This document shows, piece after piece, positions 7,404 to 16,363 of a stretch of DNA of 20,433 nt. Numbering within the stretch: the stretch's first letter is position 1; each line of letters opens with the position of its first letter. Under the pieces are notes generated by a model. That model was not told the DNA's origin and did no database searches. It saw only the letters and a program-made list of their open reading frames with translations. The stretch is from Planctomycetota bacterium (lineage in GTDB: Bacteria > Planctomycetota > Phycisphaerae > WQYP01): assembly GCA_021828935.1 (NCBI GenBank), contig JAJZCU010000001.1:1-20433 (forward strand). The letters run 5' to 3'. A program made the translations under genes and the position numbers.

Positions 7404-9383
7404 ATGCCCCCAGCCCTGCAATTTTCTCCTGTTGACAACACGATTGCCTACCAGCAGGCCCTTAACAGCTTGAATCAGGCCATTGCTGAAAAAACCAACA
7501 GTGAGCAGCTCGTGGCGGAGATGATGCGCCTGTGCGGAAGCACGCTCAACGCGGCCGGCGGCGCGGTGTGGGTGACCGAAGCCGCCGACCAGCCGCAGAT
7601 GATTTTGGAAAACAACATGGCCAACCTGGGCCTGGTGCAGGATAAAGTTCCGCTGCCGGGTTTGTTGGTGGCGGTGCGCCGCACTGCCCGCGAAGGCCGA
7701 CCGCTGATCGTGCCGCCGTTCGTGGTCGATCAGGATGCCGACGGTATGCCGCTGAACCCGTCCTCCAGCGAATTGTTGTATCTTCCCATGAAACTCGGCG
7801 GCCGGGTGGCAATGGTGTTGTGCATGGCCGTTGGCGCCACTGCGGATACCGGACTGCATCGTGCGCAGATCGGCTTTTTGCAACGCATGGTGGCCTCGGT
7901 TGAAACAGCGTTTACCGAACGCCACATCAACATGATAGAGCAGGATCGTGGGCTCAACACGCGCATCGTACAGTTTGCCGAACAGGTTCACCGCAATTTA
8001 TTCCTAAGCCAGGTGGCGGTGGACATAGCCAACCTGGTGCGCGACATGGTATCCGCCGAACGCGTGACCGTGGAACTGTACCCGCACATGCGGCGGAAGA
8101 TCGCCGCGGTTTCCAATGTGGACGAGGTGAACCGCCGGGCGGCGCTGTTCCAGGCCCAGCGGCTGGTGCTTGATTACGTGCGCGACCGGGCGGTGGCGGT
8201 GGTGCTGGATCGTGCCGCCGCGGAGCAGTTGGTCAGCGATCCGCAGATGCAGGACGCGGCCGTGGCCTATTTTGCCGCCAGCGATTTTAACGCCTTTGTA
8301 GCGGCGCCTATTAAGAATGATGATGAAGTGCTGGGCGTGGTGCTGGCCGAATACCATGACGTGCAGGCCGCACAAGACAACACCCGCCTGCTGGGCGATT
8401 TGGCCCGCATGTGTACTTCCAGCGTGAACAATGCGGTTGAATATGAAGCGATTCCACTGCGCCGGGTGTTGTTTGGCGTGAGCCAGCTCTGGCGCAAGCC
8501 GTCCGCGAAAAAGAATACGATTATCGGCACAGTGGCCGGAACGCTGGCCATTTTGTTTGTCGTGACCTGCCTGATTCCATTCCAATTTGCTGTTAAGGCC
8601 GATTGCCGTTTGGAACCGGCCGCGCAGTTTGACATTGCCTCGCCCATGCGTGGGCGCATTATTAAGGTTCCCGTTCAGGCGGGGGAACATGTGCATCCCG
8701 GCCAGCCGCTGGTGCAGTTTGACACCACGCGTCTGCGGGTGGAACTGGCCGAGCAGCAACGGAAATATCAGGAATTGCGGGTTAAATTAAAGGCGATGCA
8801 GCAAAGCGGGCACATGTCCAAAATTGCCGAAGCCCAGGCCCAAACCAGGGAAGTGCAAAAACAGGTGGGCTTATTGCAGCACGAACTTCGGCAGGCCACG
8901 GTGCGCAGCCCCATTGAGGGCACCGTGCTGACGGAACATGTGCAGCAATTGCGTTGGGCCTCGAAAAAGCCGGGCGCCCCGCTGCTGAATGTGGCCAGTT
9001 TTAACGACTGGCTGCTGGAAGTTGATGTGCCGGAATCGGACGTGGCGTTGGTGCATGACGCCTTGGCCAAGGCGGCCAACACGGCCAAAGCGCACCATCT
9101 GCCGGACTTGGGCGTGAAGGTTCAATACATTTTATATCCGTGGCCGGGCCGCATCTTCACCACCCATGCGGCGGGCACATCATTAATTTTGCCGGCGTCG
9201 GCCGAGGCCCATCATGCCAATGTCTTTCGTTTGCGCATCCCGGTGAAGCGTTCAGAACTGCCGCCGGGCATATCACTGGACCGCGTAACCGGGCGCGTAA
9301 AAATTGATGTCGGCCACGCGACGCTGATGCATCAGTGGACGCGCGGACTGGTGCGGTTGCTGCGCATGACCCTGTTTTTCTAA
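7404..9383 (+). CDS. GAF-GAF-TM-HlyD membrane fusion (adaptor) protein
   Basis: The product has 659 residues. The N-terminal ~350 residues are soluble and look like two successive GAF-type sensor domains (~33-172 and ~200-345), with patterns such as GGAVWV...LLYLPMKLGGRVAMVLCM and FVAAPIKNDDEVLGVVLAEY. One membrane helix follows (~373-392). The periplasmic part has the split lipoyl/barrel-sandwich halves of HlyD-type adaptors (SPMRGRIIKVPVQAGEHVHPGQPLVQFD at ~413-440 and RSPIEGTVL at ~501-509). These flank a coiled-coil hairpin (~444-497) and are followed by beta-barrel-like sequence. HlyD proteins bridge an inner-membrane pump to an outer-membrane channel; fusing one to cytosolic GAF sensors is unusual. 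The start ATG has a modest AGGTG ribosome site (7395-7399). The next gene, 69 bp downstream on the same strand, also ends in an HlyD-like domain, so the two probably form one complex. Confidence 0.85.
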   Translation: MPPALQFSPVDNTIAYQQALNSLNQAIAEKTNSEQLVAEMMRLCGSTLNAAGGAVWVTEAADQPQMILENNMANLGLVQDKVPLPGLLVAVRRTAREGRPLIVPPFVVDQDADGMPLNPSSSELLYLPMKLGGRVAMVLCMAVGATADTGLHRAQIGFLQRMVASVETAFTERHINMIEQDRGLNTRIVQFAEQVHRNLFLSQVAVDIANLVRDMVSAERVTVELYPHMRRKIAAVSNVDEVNRRAALFQAQRLVLDYVRDRAVAVVLDRAAAEQLVSDPQMQDAAVAYFAASDFNAFVAAPIKNDDEVLGVVLAEYHDVQAAQDNTRLLGDLARMCTSSVNNAVEYEAIPLRRVLFGVSQLWRKPSAKKNTIIGTVAGTLAILFVVTCLIPFQFAVKADCRLEPAAQFDIASPMRGRIIKVPVQAGEHVHPGQPLVQFDTTRLRVELAEQQRKYQELRVKLKAMQQSGHMSKIAEAQAQTREVQKQVGLLQHELRQATVRSPIEGTVLTEHVQQLRWASKKPGAPLLNVASFNDWLLEVDVPESDVALVHDALAKAANTAKAHHLPDLGVKVQYILYPWPGRIFTTHAAGTSLILPASAEAHHANVFRLRIPVKRSELPPGISLDRVTGRVKIDVGHATLMHQWTRGLVRLLRMTLFF

Positions 9384-9452
9384 CCCGCGTGGCGCGGCTA
9401 TTGGCGGTGAATCGGCGGCGGCGACTGGCAGTAAAATCATCAGGAATTCAGC

Positions 9453-11642
9453 ATGGCAAAAGACCCCCAGAAAAAGAAGCTGTTTCGCGTGGCGGTGGGC
9501 GCCCAGCCGGCGGACCGGGCGATAAGTACCCTGCGGCCGGACCTCAGGATTTCGCCCCAGTTGTTTTATGGCAAACTGTGCTTTGTTATTAAAGACCCGG
9601 TGACGTTGCGCTACTTCCGCCTGCAGCCGGTGGAACATTTTTTAACGCAGCAGATGGACGGCAAACGCACCGCGCGGGATTTGCTGGGGCTGTTGCAACA
9701 GCAGTTTCCGGAAAGCCCCCTGACCGTGCAGGATGTGCTGCGCTTCGTGGGCATGCTGCATGAATCGCATCTGCTGGTGGGCGAGGGCGTGGCGCACAGC
9801 GAATGGCTGGGCGCGCAAAGCGGCAAATCCCGCCGCCGCCGCTGGATACAAATGGCCCAGAATTTCCTGTTCTTCCGCATGCCCCTGTTCAATCCGGACC
9901 GGCTGCTCACGCACTTGGACGCCCTGGTGGGCAACCTGATATTTCGCCCGTTTACCATCATCATGTCCGGCATTTTATTAATAGCGGCCATCGTGGGCCT
10001 GCTGGGCCATACGGACAAACTTTTCCACACCCCGTACAGCCTTTTGAGCTGGCAGAATCTGCTGGTGCTGTACTGCGTGTTTATTGTCACCAAGGTGTTT
10101 CACGAATTCGGCCACGGCATGACCACCAAGCACTTTGGCGGGGAAGTGTCGCAGATGGGCGTGATCGTGATGGTCTTTACCCCCAGCTTTTACTGCGATA
10201 CCAGCGACGCCTGGATGATACCATCCCGCGCAGCGCGTTTGTGGATTAATTCCGGCGGGGTATTGGTTGAATTGGTGCTGGCATCGCTGGCCACGTTTGT
10301 GTGGATTGCCACCCGTTCGCACAGCATTGTCAACCAGATTTCATTAAATATCATGATTTCCTGCAGCGTGGCCACGTTGTTCTTTAATGGCAATCCGCTG
10401 ATGCGTTATGACGGCTACTACTTTCTGGCCGATCTTTTGGAAATTCCCAACTTAATGACCAAAGGCCGGGAATTCCTGAAATATTATATCCAAAAATATG
10501 TCCTGAACCTCAAGCCGGATCTCCCGCCTGATTCCGACCGCCTGGTGCCGCTGGCCATTTACACTGTAGCCAGTACGGCCTACCGCTGGCTGGTGATGTT
10601 CGCGATCATCATGGTGCTGTACGTATTTTTCAACCACTATGGCGTGGCGTTCATTGGGGTGCTGCTGGCGGCGGGATATATTTTTCTGTCGGTGCTTTTG
10701 CCGCTGATCAAGGCCTGCCGTTTCTTATGGAAACAGCGGTGGGATGTGGGCAAGCGTGTACGCTGGGTGGGCGGCGCGGCGCTGGCGGGCGTGGCGTTGC
10801 TGGTGGGCGTGGCGTTCATTCCGTGGCACATGACCATTCGGGAACCCCTGGTGGTGCTGGCGCGCGAAGACCAGCCCGTGTTTGTGCAATCTCCGGGCTA
10901 CGTGCTGCGCGTGTACAAAGATGTCGGGCAGTATGTGAAGAAAGGCGGCCGGATCGTCAAATTGGTGGACCGCGGGCTGGAAGGCCGGCTGGACAAGGCT
11001 CAAGCCATGGCCCAGGAGTTGCAAATAAAATCCGCCCAGGCCATGGCCAAAAATAATTCCGTGGCCATGAAAATGCTCGATGAGGAACTTAACGCCTATG
11101 ACCGGCAGATAAAATTGTTAAAGCAACGCGAACGCGACCTGGTCATCCGGGCGCCCATCAGCGGGGTGATTATCCGCCGGTCATCGCTACGGCACATTGT
11201 TGGGAATTATGTGGTTCCCAGCACGCAGCTGTGCAATGTCATGAATCCGCACGACATGCAGGCCCGCGTCTCGCTGCCGCAGCAGTTGGCGGCCATGGTG
11301 CATCCGGGCATGCCAGTGACCATGCGGCTGTGGGCCCAGGCCTCGCACGCCCTGCGCTTCCATGTGAATCGCGTGAGTTCCACGCTCAGCGATCAACTGC
11401 TGCACCCCGCGCTGGCCAGCAGCGACAAGGGCGACCTTGCGGTACGCGCCGGCCGGCATGGCGGCATGCGAACATTGGATCGGCGCAGCACCGTGATTAT
11501 TAATTTAGGCAATTCCACACGCGGCGAATTCTTGGCCGACGGCATGACCGGCCGCGCTGAAATCACGGTGGAAAAAACGACCGTCATCGGCCGCGTATGG
11601 CGGCTGTTTTTGGACACCACCACGCCGGATCTGCGGTTGTGA
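9453..11642 (+). CDS. PqqD-like / M50 site-2-type protease / HlyD fusion protein
   Basis: The product has 729 residues. Residues ~35-110 resemble a PqqD-type domain (small winged helix that binds peptide substrates of RiPP enzymes), with the typical 'DG.RT..DLL..L' pattern. A multi-spanning membrane region follows, with an M50 (site-2 protease) active site: HEFGH at 217-221 in TKVFHEFGHGMTTKHFGG, and the distal zinc-ligand motif NPLMRYDG (Asp at 320). Both are intact. The FYCDTSDAW segment (~247-255) is also typical of this protease family. After the last helix (~438-456) comes an HlyD-type segment with lipoyl halves (~478-506 and ~564-575) and a coiled coil (~508-560). The start has AGGA at 9442-9445, 7 nt upstream. 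It probably cleaves or escorts a peptide or membrane protein and links to the upstream GAF-HlyD protein. No precursor peptide, ABC transporter or TolC gene is visible nearby. Confidence 0.87.
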   Translation: MAKDPQKKKLFRVAVGAQPADRAISTLRPDLRISPQLFYGKLCFVIKDPVTLRYFRLQPVEHFLTQQMDGKRTARDLLGLLQQQFPESPLTVQDVLRFVGMLHESHLLVGEGVAHSEWLGAQSGKSRRRRWIQMAQNFLFFRMPLFNPDRLLTHLDALVGNLIFRPFTIIMSGILLIAAIVGLLGHTDKLFHTPYSLLSWQNLLVLYCVFIVTKVFHEFGHGMTTKHFGGEVSQMGVIVMVFTPSFYCDTSDAWMIPSRAARLWINSGGVLVELVLASLATFVWIATRSHSIVNQISLNIMISCSVATLFFNGNPLMRYDGYYFLADLLEIPNLMTKGREFLKYYIQKYVLNLKPDLPPDSDRLVPLAIYTVASTAYRWLVMFAIIMVLYVFFNHYGVAFIGVLLAAGYIFLSVLLPLIKACRFLWKQRWDVGKRVRWVGGAALAGVALLVGVAFIPWHMTIREPLVVLAREDQPVFVQSPGYVLRVYKDVGQYVKKGGRIVKLVDRGLEGRLDKAQAMAQELQIKSAQAMAKNNSVAMKMLDEELNAYDRQIKLLKQRERDLVIRAPISGVIIRRSSLRHIVGNYVVPSTQLCNVMNPHDMQARVSLPQQLAAMVHPGMPVTMRLWAQASHALRFHVNRVSSTLSDQLLHPALASSDKGDLAVRAGRHGGMRTLDRRSTVIINLGNSTRGEFLADGMTGRAEITVEKTTVIGRVWRLFLDTTTPDLRL

Positions 11643-14479: not shown

Positions 14480-16363
14480 TTATTTGACATCATTCGCTGT
14501 TTTGTTGTTATTGTCCAAACCCGCACCGCTTTCGGTTGGCGCCGCCCTTCTCTCCACGCGCAGGCGCAATTCCACCGGGCTGTGCATGGTCATCCCCTTC
14601 ACCCACCGCACGCGCCGCTGCGCCAGATTTAAACCCGCGTACCGTTGCAACAAAACATCCAACGCCACATGCCCTTCCAGCCGCGCCAGCATGGCGCCCA
14701 GACAGAAATGGATGCCGTGCCCAAAGGCCAGATGTTTGTTTTCCTGCCGGGTTACGTCAAAATGGTCTGGATCCTTAAACACGGCGGGATCCCGGTTGGC
14801 GCCGCCCAGTGATAACAAAAGCAACTCGCCCCGGCGGATAGTGTGCCCATGAAAGTTAATATTTTCACTGGCCAGGCGGCCGGTCCATTGCACGGGGCTT
14901 TCAAAGCGCAGAATTTCCTCCACCGCCGTGGGCATGGCCTCCGGGTGTTCCCGCAAATGCTGCAGTTGCCGCGGATGGCGCAGCAATGCCAGCACGCCAT
15001 TGGCGATCAGGCCGGTGGTGGTTTCATGGCCGGCCATCAGCAGCAACATGCAGTTGGCCACCAGATGTACTTCCTCAAGTTCTCGCCCGCCATTTTTTAA
15101 CAGAGCGCAAATAAGGTTTTCCCCGCCCTTGGCCGAAACGCCCGGCAGGCGCACGGTTAAATAATCACGAAAATCAGCGATCGACTGCTCGGCCGACACC
15201 ATCTGCTCCATGGATGGATTAAACGCCAGCGAACCGATGACATCATCCGACCACTTCTTTAATTGCGGCGCATCTTCCGCCGGCAGCCCCATTAAGTCGC
15301 AAATCACCAACGTGGGCAGCGGCGATGCGTAATCGGCCACCACATTCAGCCGCCCCGCCGTATCGGCCCCGGCCAGCAATGCTTCGGCCTGGCGGCGAAC
15401 CACCGGTCGCAGCGCCTGCAGCGGCGTGGAACCGAAGGCCTTCATAAACACCAGGCGAATGCGAGTGTGCAGGGGCGGGTCCACAAACAGCATCATGGTG
15501 TTAAATTCATTGGGAATTGCCGGCGCGGCCAACTGCAAGCGGCTCTCCGCCGGAAAGGCATACGGAGAAAACGGGTTGCGTACAAAACGTGGATCTCGCA
15601 GAACGGCCTGCACATCGGCGTGGCGAAGCATCACCCAGGCGGGAAAAATCGGATCGCGGCGAATCGGGTGCGTGTGTCGCAGGCGCCGATAAAATGAGTA
15701 TGGACTGGTAACGAATTTTGGATGCAGCAAGCTTTTGTTTACCACCATGTGCCACGCCAGGCCGGGCAGGCGGCTGGCGCGCCTGAACAGATGCCGGCGC
15801 AACGTGCCCAGACGGAAGCGGCTGCCGGGTTCCATGCCCATGGCAATGCGGCGTTCAATCAGGCCCTTGCGCTGCCAGGCCTTCAGGGCGCGGCGCCCCA
15901 CCGCGGGGGTGAAGCCGGCGGCGTTGAGGCATTTGCCCACAGGGCTATCATCGGCGGCCAAAGCCAACAGCAGATGTTCGGTTGAGACGTAGGTGGCGCC
16001 GCGGCTGCGCGCAATGTCTGACGCGCTATGCAGCACGCGCATGCTGCCATCAGAAAACACGCTGGCCTTGCCGTTTTGGCCCGTCATGGGAGATCGCCCG
16101 GAATCGGGGCCCGCTGTGCTCTGAATCGCTTCCAAATTGCCCGCCCAGTGCAACATGCCGTAAGCGGCAGTCTGTTGGTCACCCAGAACGGCAGCAAGCA
16201 GATGGTCCGGCTCGGCGGCGGGCAGCCCCTCTGCGCCAGCCAGGGCCAAACTGTCCAACAGCACGCCGCGCATGCGTGGCGGAAAGGTGTTCCATAAATC
16301 GGCAACCATCGGTACGCGCCGCCTTTGCAAATCAACGCCAGTGAAGTGGGCATTGTAGGCCAT
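14480..16363 (-). CDS. Cytochrome P450 with N-terminal double Clp_N-like domain
   Basis: The product has 627 residues; ordinary bacterial P450s have ~400. Residues ~200-607 form a complete P450. The I-helix AGHETTT (444-450) carries the oxygen-activating acid/threonine pair, the K-helix ExxR is E483-R486, and the heme loop FGHGIHFCLG (547-556) has the ligand C554. No membrane anchor or reductase domain is present, so external redox partners are needed. The extra N-terminus has two similar helical repeats (~30-82 and ~105-163). Both show the Clp N-terminal pattern; the second reads VLHSASDIARSRGATYVSTEHLLLALAADDSPVGKCLNAAGF, with the 'EHLLLAL' core and a 'G' ending the last helix. The first has a matching DHLLAAVLGD. 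Such domains bind substrates or adaptors of ClpA/ClpC. No strong Shine-Dalgarno precedes the ATG; Met19 is an alternative start. The substrate is unknown. Confidence 0.88.
   Translation of the reverse strand: MAYNAHFTGVDLQRRRVPMVADLWNTFPPRMRGVLLDSLALAGAEGLPAAEPDHLLAAVLGDQQTAAYGMLHWAGNLEAIQSTAGPDSGRSPMTGQNGKASVFSDGSMRVLHSASDIARSRGATYVSTEHLLLALAADDSPVGKCLNAAGFTPAVGRRALKAWQRKGLIERRIAMGMEPGSRFRLGTLRRHLFRRASRLPGLAWHMVVNKSLLHPKFVTSPYSFYRRLRHTHPIRRDPIFPAWVMLRHADVQAVLRDPRFVRNPFSPYAFPAESRLQLAAPAIPNEFNTMMLFVDPPLHTRIRLVFMKAFGSTPLQALRPVVRRQAEALLAGADTAGRLNVVADYASPLPTLVICDLMGLPAEDAPQLKKWSDDVIGSLAFNPSMEQMVSAEQSIADFRDYLTVRLPGVSAKGGENLICALLKNGGRELEEVHLVANCMLLLMAGHETTTGLIANGVLALLRHPRQLQHLREHPEAMPTAVEEILRFESPVQWTGRLASENINFHGHTIRRGELLLLSLGGANRDPAVFKDPDHFDVTRQENKHLAFGHGIHFCLGAMLARLEGHVALDVLLQRYAGLNLAQRRVRWVKGMTMHSPVELRLRVERRAAPTESGAGLDNNNKTANDVK

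Follow-up and report, generated by a model that had tools for sequence, protein, structure and literature searches.

Can a cytochrome P450 share a single chain with the N-terminal domain of a Clp chaperone, and what would such a domain do for the enzyme? The question is raised by an open frame of 627 aa at 14480..16363 (-) of the window, that is, the whole stretch of 20,433 nucleotides that was analysed. The window is one entire contig of a planctomycete draft genome of 2.66 Mb (490 contigs, 53.7% complete). An earlier note, made from the letters alone, had read the frame as a P450 preceded by a double Clp_N-like domain and knew of none that had been described with this architecture. In agreement with it, no description of a Clp_N-P450 fusion was found in the literature (open-licence papers only, hence a weak negative). 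In the P450 fusions known to us, the added parts are redox partners; in this protein, the P450 is instead joined to the peptide-reading part of a disaggregase/unfoldase.

The fused gene and its domains

Both domains, Clp_N (PF02861) and the P450 family (PF00067, E 1e-26), exceed their Pfam cut-offs in the window protein. A frame or assembly error joining two genes is ruled out by the same architecture in other assemblies, and the fusion is a genuine single frame. The functional start is probably Met19 (ATG 16309, (-)), which gives a protein of 609 aa, since the database copy (P0002) begins there, residues 1-19 are modelled at pLDDT <50, and a single residue precedes the tryptophan in 51 of the 91 aligned members with W24.

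The N-terminal part forms two tandem four-helix repeats in sequence and model, which is the fold of Clp N-domains and bears out the word "double" of the earlier note. Repeat 1 (residues 24-84, 16112..16294 (-)) is defined by alignment and model and has no separate Pfam call in the window protein. Repeat 2 (residues 103-165, 15869..16057 (-)) contains STEHLLLAL and is identified by PF02861, which matches one stretch (E 1.5e-12; 47.9 bits against a cut-off of 20.7). The NCBIfam ClpB model covers residues 32-164 (E 1.9e-8). Because the fold search with the whole chain was filled by P450s, the N-domain was modelled and searched separately, and the model matched solved Clp N-domains. The best match was the ClpC1 N-terminal domain with a cyclomarin analogue, others being tied with it within 1 Z unit. 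Structure titles show that members of this fold have been solved bound to adaptors, to cyclic peptides and to phosphoarginine. In the window protein, Pfam detected no AAA family at E values up to 1; the chain lacks the AAA+ part of an HSP100/Clp ATPase.

Conservation was determined in an alignment of 129 members of 520-660 aa, from which seven shorter ones were left out and in which P0117, P0279, and P0289, where Pfam calls no Clp_N, were retained. Tryptophan occupies position 24 in 91 of the 93 rows reaching that column. It aligns with Phe2 of the ClpC of the window's own genome, and an aromatic residue is absent at this column in all six ClpB rows compared. H130 is invariant (129/129). At residue 103, 127 of 128 members have L, F, I, Y or M; in this column, the ClpC of the window's genome has Q and a ClpC2-like protein has F. 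W24 and residue 103 probably match the groove phenylalanine F2 and position F80 of ClpC1 from mycobacteria; according to their titles, F2 and F80 are the altered sites in the structures 3wdd and 3wde. The groove positions that align with those presumed to be K85, L92, and L96 of ClpC are not conserved in the family. Among six remoter members scanned, Clp_N lies above the cut-off in three, at the cut-off in one and below it in two. Compared with the PF02861 pairs of ClpB and ClpC, the fusion has no AAA+ modules and thus neither unfolds nor threads, its family has a nearly invariant tryptophan at the first helix, and the phosphoarginine glutamates are kept in part.

The P450 domain spans residues 211-606 (14546..15733 (-)), as delimited by PF00067 and the match to BioI, and is predicted to have the P450 fold. 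The I-helix oxygen-activation motif AGHETTT (residues 444-450, 15014..15034 (-)) carries the acid-alcohol pair E447-T448, of which E447 is found in 129/129 and T448 in 121/129 members. The ExxR motif is EILR (residues 483-486, 14906..14917 (-)), with R486 in 129/129 and E483 in 127/129. The heme-binding loop FGHGIHFCLG (residues 547-556, 14696..14725 (-)) agrees with FxxGxxxCxG and holds the ligand Cys554 in all 129. As judged from these motifs, the catalytic residues are intact.

BioI (CYP107H1 of Bacillus subtilis), one of the CYP107-like bacterial P450s, is the closest solved P450 by sequence (E 8.3e-82) and by Foldseek, and it ties with CalO2 in the VIA-align structural comparison. The window domain shares all catalytic motifs with these enzymes and shows 39-40% identity to BioI over the P450 domain. 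On the contrary, BioI is about 400 aa long without an N-terminal Clp_N. BioI is a pimelate-forming P450 of a biotin gene cluster that cleaves acyl chains on acyl carrier protein; beside the fusion, Pfam found no biotin gene among the nine neighbouring window frames scanned. Self-sufficient P450s such as P450-BM3 are fused to reductase or ferredoxin parts. The window fusion similarly combines a P450 with a second domain in one chain, but the second domain comes from a chaperone and binds ligands there, and no redox domain is called by Pfam.

The two domains are connected by a basic linker (residues 166-210, 15734..15868 (-)), recognised by composition (11 K+R, 2 D+E) and by the model. Residues 179-188 have pLDDT mostly <50, and the linker terminates in a helix (192-210) that is moderately amphipathic in a calculation run without a control. 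This helix could contact either the membrane or the P450.

Distribution and ancestry of the family

The idea of an oddity confined to the window's genome was refuted by profile searches. Earlier word-sharing and pattern searches had under-sampled the family, returning the identical copy and 79 Clp ATPases, pieces or Clp_N-only proteins, and no locus. Among 61 genomes of relatives, both parts were aligned in G000, G003, G004, G019, and G022, and G013 holds the fusion in two pieces at contig ends. Clp_N and P450 both lie above the Pfam cut-offs in all four full-length orthologues of the window family; in a fifth, which a contig end breaks in two, one of the pieces carries Clp_N. At 1e-20, matches were obtained in 21 of 298 genomes of the class, and nine of these extended into the N-domain, namely the six above together with G116, G120, and G135. 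In 392 genomes sampled from the phylum, 11 matched at 1e-60; the N-domain was reached in G000 only, the remaining ten matches beginning at model position 187 or later.

Beyond the planctomycetes, where the earlier note had suggested looking for it, the fusion was also found in Armatimonadota. The genome G649 (locus L069) is an Armatimonadetes MAG, and of 291 genomes of its phylum seven matched at 1e-100, with the N-domain reached in two, G649 and G671. Since it is found in bacteria of two phyla, the fusion is a real enzyme family. A five-sequence profile run against a protein database gave both Pfam domains in 21 of 120 proteins listed out of 408 matches at 1e-30, and a nine-sequence profile gave both in 110 of the 120 best of 3775 clusters at 1e-60. 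The named entries include Phycisphaerae for the former, and Tepidisphaeraceae, Armatimonadota, and Capsulimonadaceae for the latter. Nine carrier loci (L059-L066 and L069) are all from MAGs, labelled Planctomycetota, Phycisphaera mikurensis, Phycisphaerales, Phycisphaerae, and Armatimonadetes. Database labels of the listed clusters, where present, read "cytochrome P450" or "hypothetical protein", and once a BioI-type name. The architecture therefore delimits a concrete and testable enzyme family of at least 110 generically named protein clusters.

The N-domain is not equally preserved in all copies. In G135, two fusion genes lie head to tail (L034:5799-10202 (-), contig 189), and the N-domain of the downstream one (G135b) is degenerate and falls below the Pfam cut-off, as does that of P0117. 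The same genome also holds pieces of another fusion on two contigs. P0299 and P0300 (441 and 425 aa), which belong to the clade of the window, are without the N-domain and keep the linker helix. They are identical across the P450 columns, are probably one gene with two start calls, and appear to represent a close relative without the N-domain. P0295 and P0293 may be fragments.

The tree of the P450 columns placed 24 fusion members in one clade (SH-aLRT 100) against 54 other P450s. P0085, P0087, and P0093 were left out of the 24, of which four (P0102, P0103, P0117, and G135b, some truncated) have no Clp_N above the cut-off. The 54 comprise every second of the ordinary P0104-P0200 and five of the 15 planctomycete P450 loci tried. 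When an armatimonad fusion and G120 were included in a careful tree of 64 rows with the ordinary P450s thinned further, 26 fusions stood together at 83/88, and the same set minus the armatimonad fusion at 100/100. A larger quick tree of 96 rows (every sixth of P0201-P0314 and some chosen rows) supported the clade of the window at 99 and that of the armatimonads at 100, without joining the two. As these two trees disagree, the window-clade and armatimonad fusions may have had one origin or two.

Selection was estimated as dN/dS in 10 pairs, several of which have saturated synonymous distances. The ratio ranged over 0.10-0.69 for the N-domain (9 of 10 pairs computable), 0.07-0.32 for the P450 (10/10), and 0.016-0.67 for the linker (8 of 10). 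By these ratios, the N-domain is under purifying selection, and it evolves faster than the P450 domain. In two of the three pairs within genus g4, dN is lower for the linker (0.030 and 0.095) than for either domain; in the third it reaches 0.121 against 0.105 for the P450.

Clp_N is seen as a portable domain from two further fusions in G649. The one, a 620-aa protein on contig 235 (L143:1932-3794 (-)), carries a ClpC-like double Clp_N, a stretch resembling T2SSE and the two domains of ornithine carbamoyltransferase. The other, of 529 aa on contig 242 (L142:2128-3717 (+)), combines sigma-70 regions 2 and 4 with a C-terminal double Clp_N.

Genomic context and possible roles of the N-terminal domain

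Neighbouring frames of at least 90 aa were compared all against all (E 1e-6) in 11 carrier genomes; many of these loci end at contig ends, and shorter frames are missed. No conserved operon was found on this scale. The sole neighbours conserved in position are GAPDH-like and FabZ-like genes in two genomes of genus g4 (identified by eye), and an SDR-like pair recurs at unrelated positions. The gene neighbourhood, which the earlier note had proposed to check, thus shows no partner recurring in place in these loci apart from that g4 pair. In the window, the genes on one side of the fusion are of PurD type and for a LeuD-like aconitase C-terminal domain, and a flippase-like gene lies on the other, all as judged by Pfam. 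In G004 (L016:9158-13218 (-)), a PAS histidine kinase and a LuxR-type response regulator lie upstream on the same strand, and the fusion begins 3 nt further on if its longest frame is taken, or about 105 nt further on if it starts as in the database entry P0089. The neighbours are a sugar-type ABC transporter and groEL, groEL, dnaJ, and grpE-like genes (the latter identified by eye) in G019, and GAPDH-like and fatty-acid genes (by eye) in G022. The kinase-regulator pair, the sugar transporter and the chaperone genes each occur beside the fusion in a single genome, and a conserved operon was rejected for the loci compared.

Tentatively, and short of calling it probable, we favour the reading that these are P450 monooxygenases with a ClpB/ClpC-type ligand-binding N-domain that serves as a docking module free of an ATP-driven motor. 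The hydrophobic groove of Clp_N would hold a peptide segment, a protein or a carrier protein, the flexible basic linker would present the attached substrate to the P450, and the P450 would oxidise it with electrons from general cellular ferredoxins. A Clp N-domain deprived of its motor can do no more than bind, and recruitment of the P450's substrate, or of its carrier, is the economical reading of such binding. A carrier-bound substrate is suggested by BioI, the nearest solved P450, whose structures hold fatty acids tethered to acyl carrier protein (structure titles). Consistent with docking, the fusion is the sole P450 found in each of six carriers of family f1; nine of the 28 genomes of this family have a P450, the other three (G005, G009, and G014) possessing one ordinary P450 each. 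On the other hand, further groove positions vary, the N-domain evolves faster, some copies are degenerate and one seems to be lost, which would be surprising if substrate capture strictly depended on the domain. Docking, if true, would hint that in phyla that have been little studied P450s act on peptides, on proteins or on molecules borne by a carrier, and Clp N-domains would have a natural case of acting away from the motor. That the P450s use the chaperone's substrate-reading domain specifically to select peptide or protein substrates, with proteins, unfolded segments or Clp-directed cyclic peptide toxins caught by the groove and then oxidised, seems to us rather unlikely.

The earlier note had also considered that the P450 might be regulated by, or delivered to, the Clp machinery. 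In Clp proteins, adaptors, substrates, and peptides are bound by the N-domain (PMC10030653; PMC12583610). As it is such a binder, the fused N-domain should recognise the ligands of ClpB and ClpC rather than ClpC itself, which favours docking of a substrate or partner over delivery to the Clp machinery.

An unlikely alternative to docking is that Clp_N acts as a control handle, binding Clp adaptors or stress signals (McsB-type, phosphoarginine proteins) and tying the amount or activity of the P450 to protein quality control. The components are widespread in family f1, in which Clp_N is matched in 27 of 28 genomes, mostly in ClpB/ClpC-sized frames, and the McsB-type arginine kinase (PF00217) in 23 of 28, including all 17 that are at least 90% complete. 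PF00217 was, on the contrary, not found in the window's own genome (54% complete). Bacillus subtilis, which possesses McsB and ClpC and was among the control genomes of the P450 scan, did not come up in the Clp_N controls, and PF00217 was positive in 0 of 14 control genomes; as both controls undercount, only positives are relied on. The fusions of Clp_N to a sigma factor and to ornithine carbamoyltransferase in the armatimonad carrier suggest a portable control module, and the groEL, dnaJ, and grpE-like neighbours in G019 would also suit control by protein quality. Against this, no CIRCE heat-shock operator was detected with up to four mismatches in the window or in loci L001-L021, and an N-domain that binds adaptors rather than the Clp ring would make any delivery to degradation indirect.

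Phosphoarginine itself is held in ClpC by E32 and E106, according to PMC12583610. By alignment, their counterparts in the window protein are D53 and E129, so that only the second is a glutamate. In the family, the counterpart at 129 is E in 113 of 129 members, both are E in 69 and neither in nine, which would suit a control handle in part. In genus g4, however, the second glutamate is replaced by Ser in 4/4 genomes and both are lost in two (G003 and G019), although all four have PF00217. Because of these losses and of the count of 69/129 with both glutamates, phosphoarginine reading was rejected as a function common to the family. The sensing of modified proteins proposed in the earlier note thus fails as a family-wide trait, and members with both glutamates may still, from their residues, read phosphoarginine.

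It is improbable that Clp_N is a passive, ligand-free domain for folding, solubility or assembly. Its faster evolution relative to the P450, the degenerate copies and the possible loss would fit such a part, whereas its retention across deep divergence, the Clp N-domain fold and the near-invariant tryptophan absent from six ClpB rows speak against it.

Very improbable is a catalytic sponge, by analogy with mycobacterial ClpC2, in which Clp_N would be a decoy for N-domain-directed peptide antibiotics that the P450 oxidises: the cyclomarin-bound top match, tied as it is, and the presumed alignment of W24 and residue 103 with the positions changed in 3wdd and 3wde would agree with it, but the family does not conserve the counterparts of K85, L92, and L96, the fusion has no recurring neighbour gene, and the nine carrier loci, all from MAGs, have no known exposure to such peptides. 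According to PMC10030653, ClpC2 is homologous to part of ClpC1, has a Clp N-domain and binds cyclomarin A as a protective sponge; a further four-helix part makes it dimerise, it is the repressor of its own gene, and it contains no enzyme, whereas the partner in the fusion is a P450. No such four-helix part precedes Clp_N in the window protein, where only about 20 low-confidence residues stand.

Other features of the window

Two adjacent genes at 7404-11642 (+) encode a GAF-GAF-HlyD protein (659 aa) and a PqqD/M50-like/HlyD protein (729 aa; M50-like below cut-off), and the pair has the look of a membrane unit for export or processing. The beginning of the window is repetitive: a 79-nt element occurs thrice within 1-1049 (at 1, 195, and 971), and a 149-nt unit is present in 2.1 tandem copies at 432-747.
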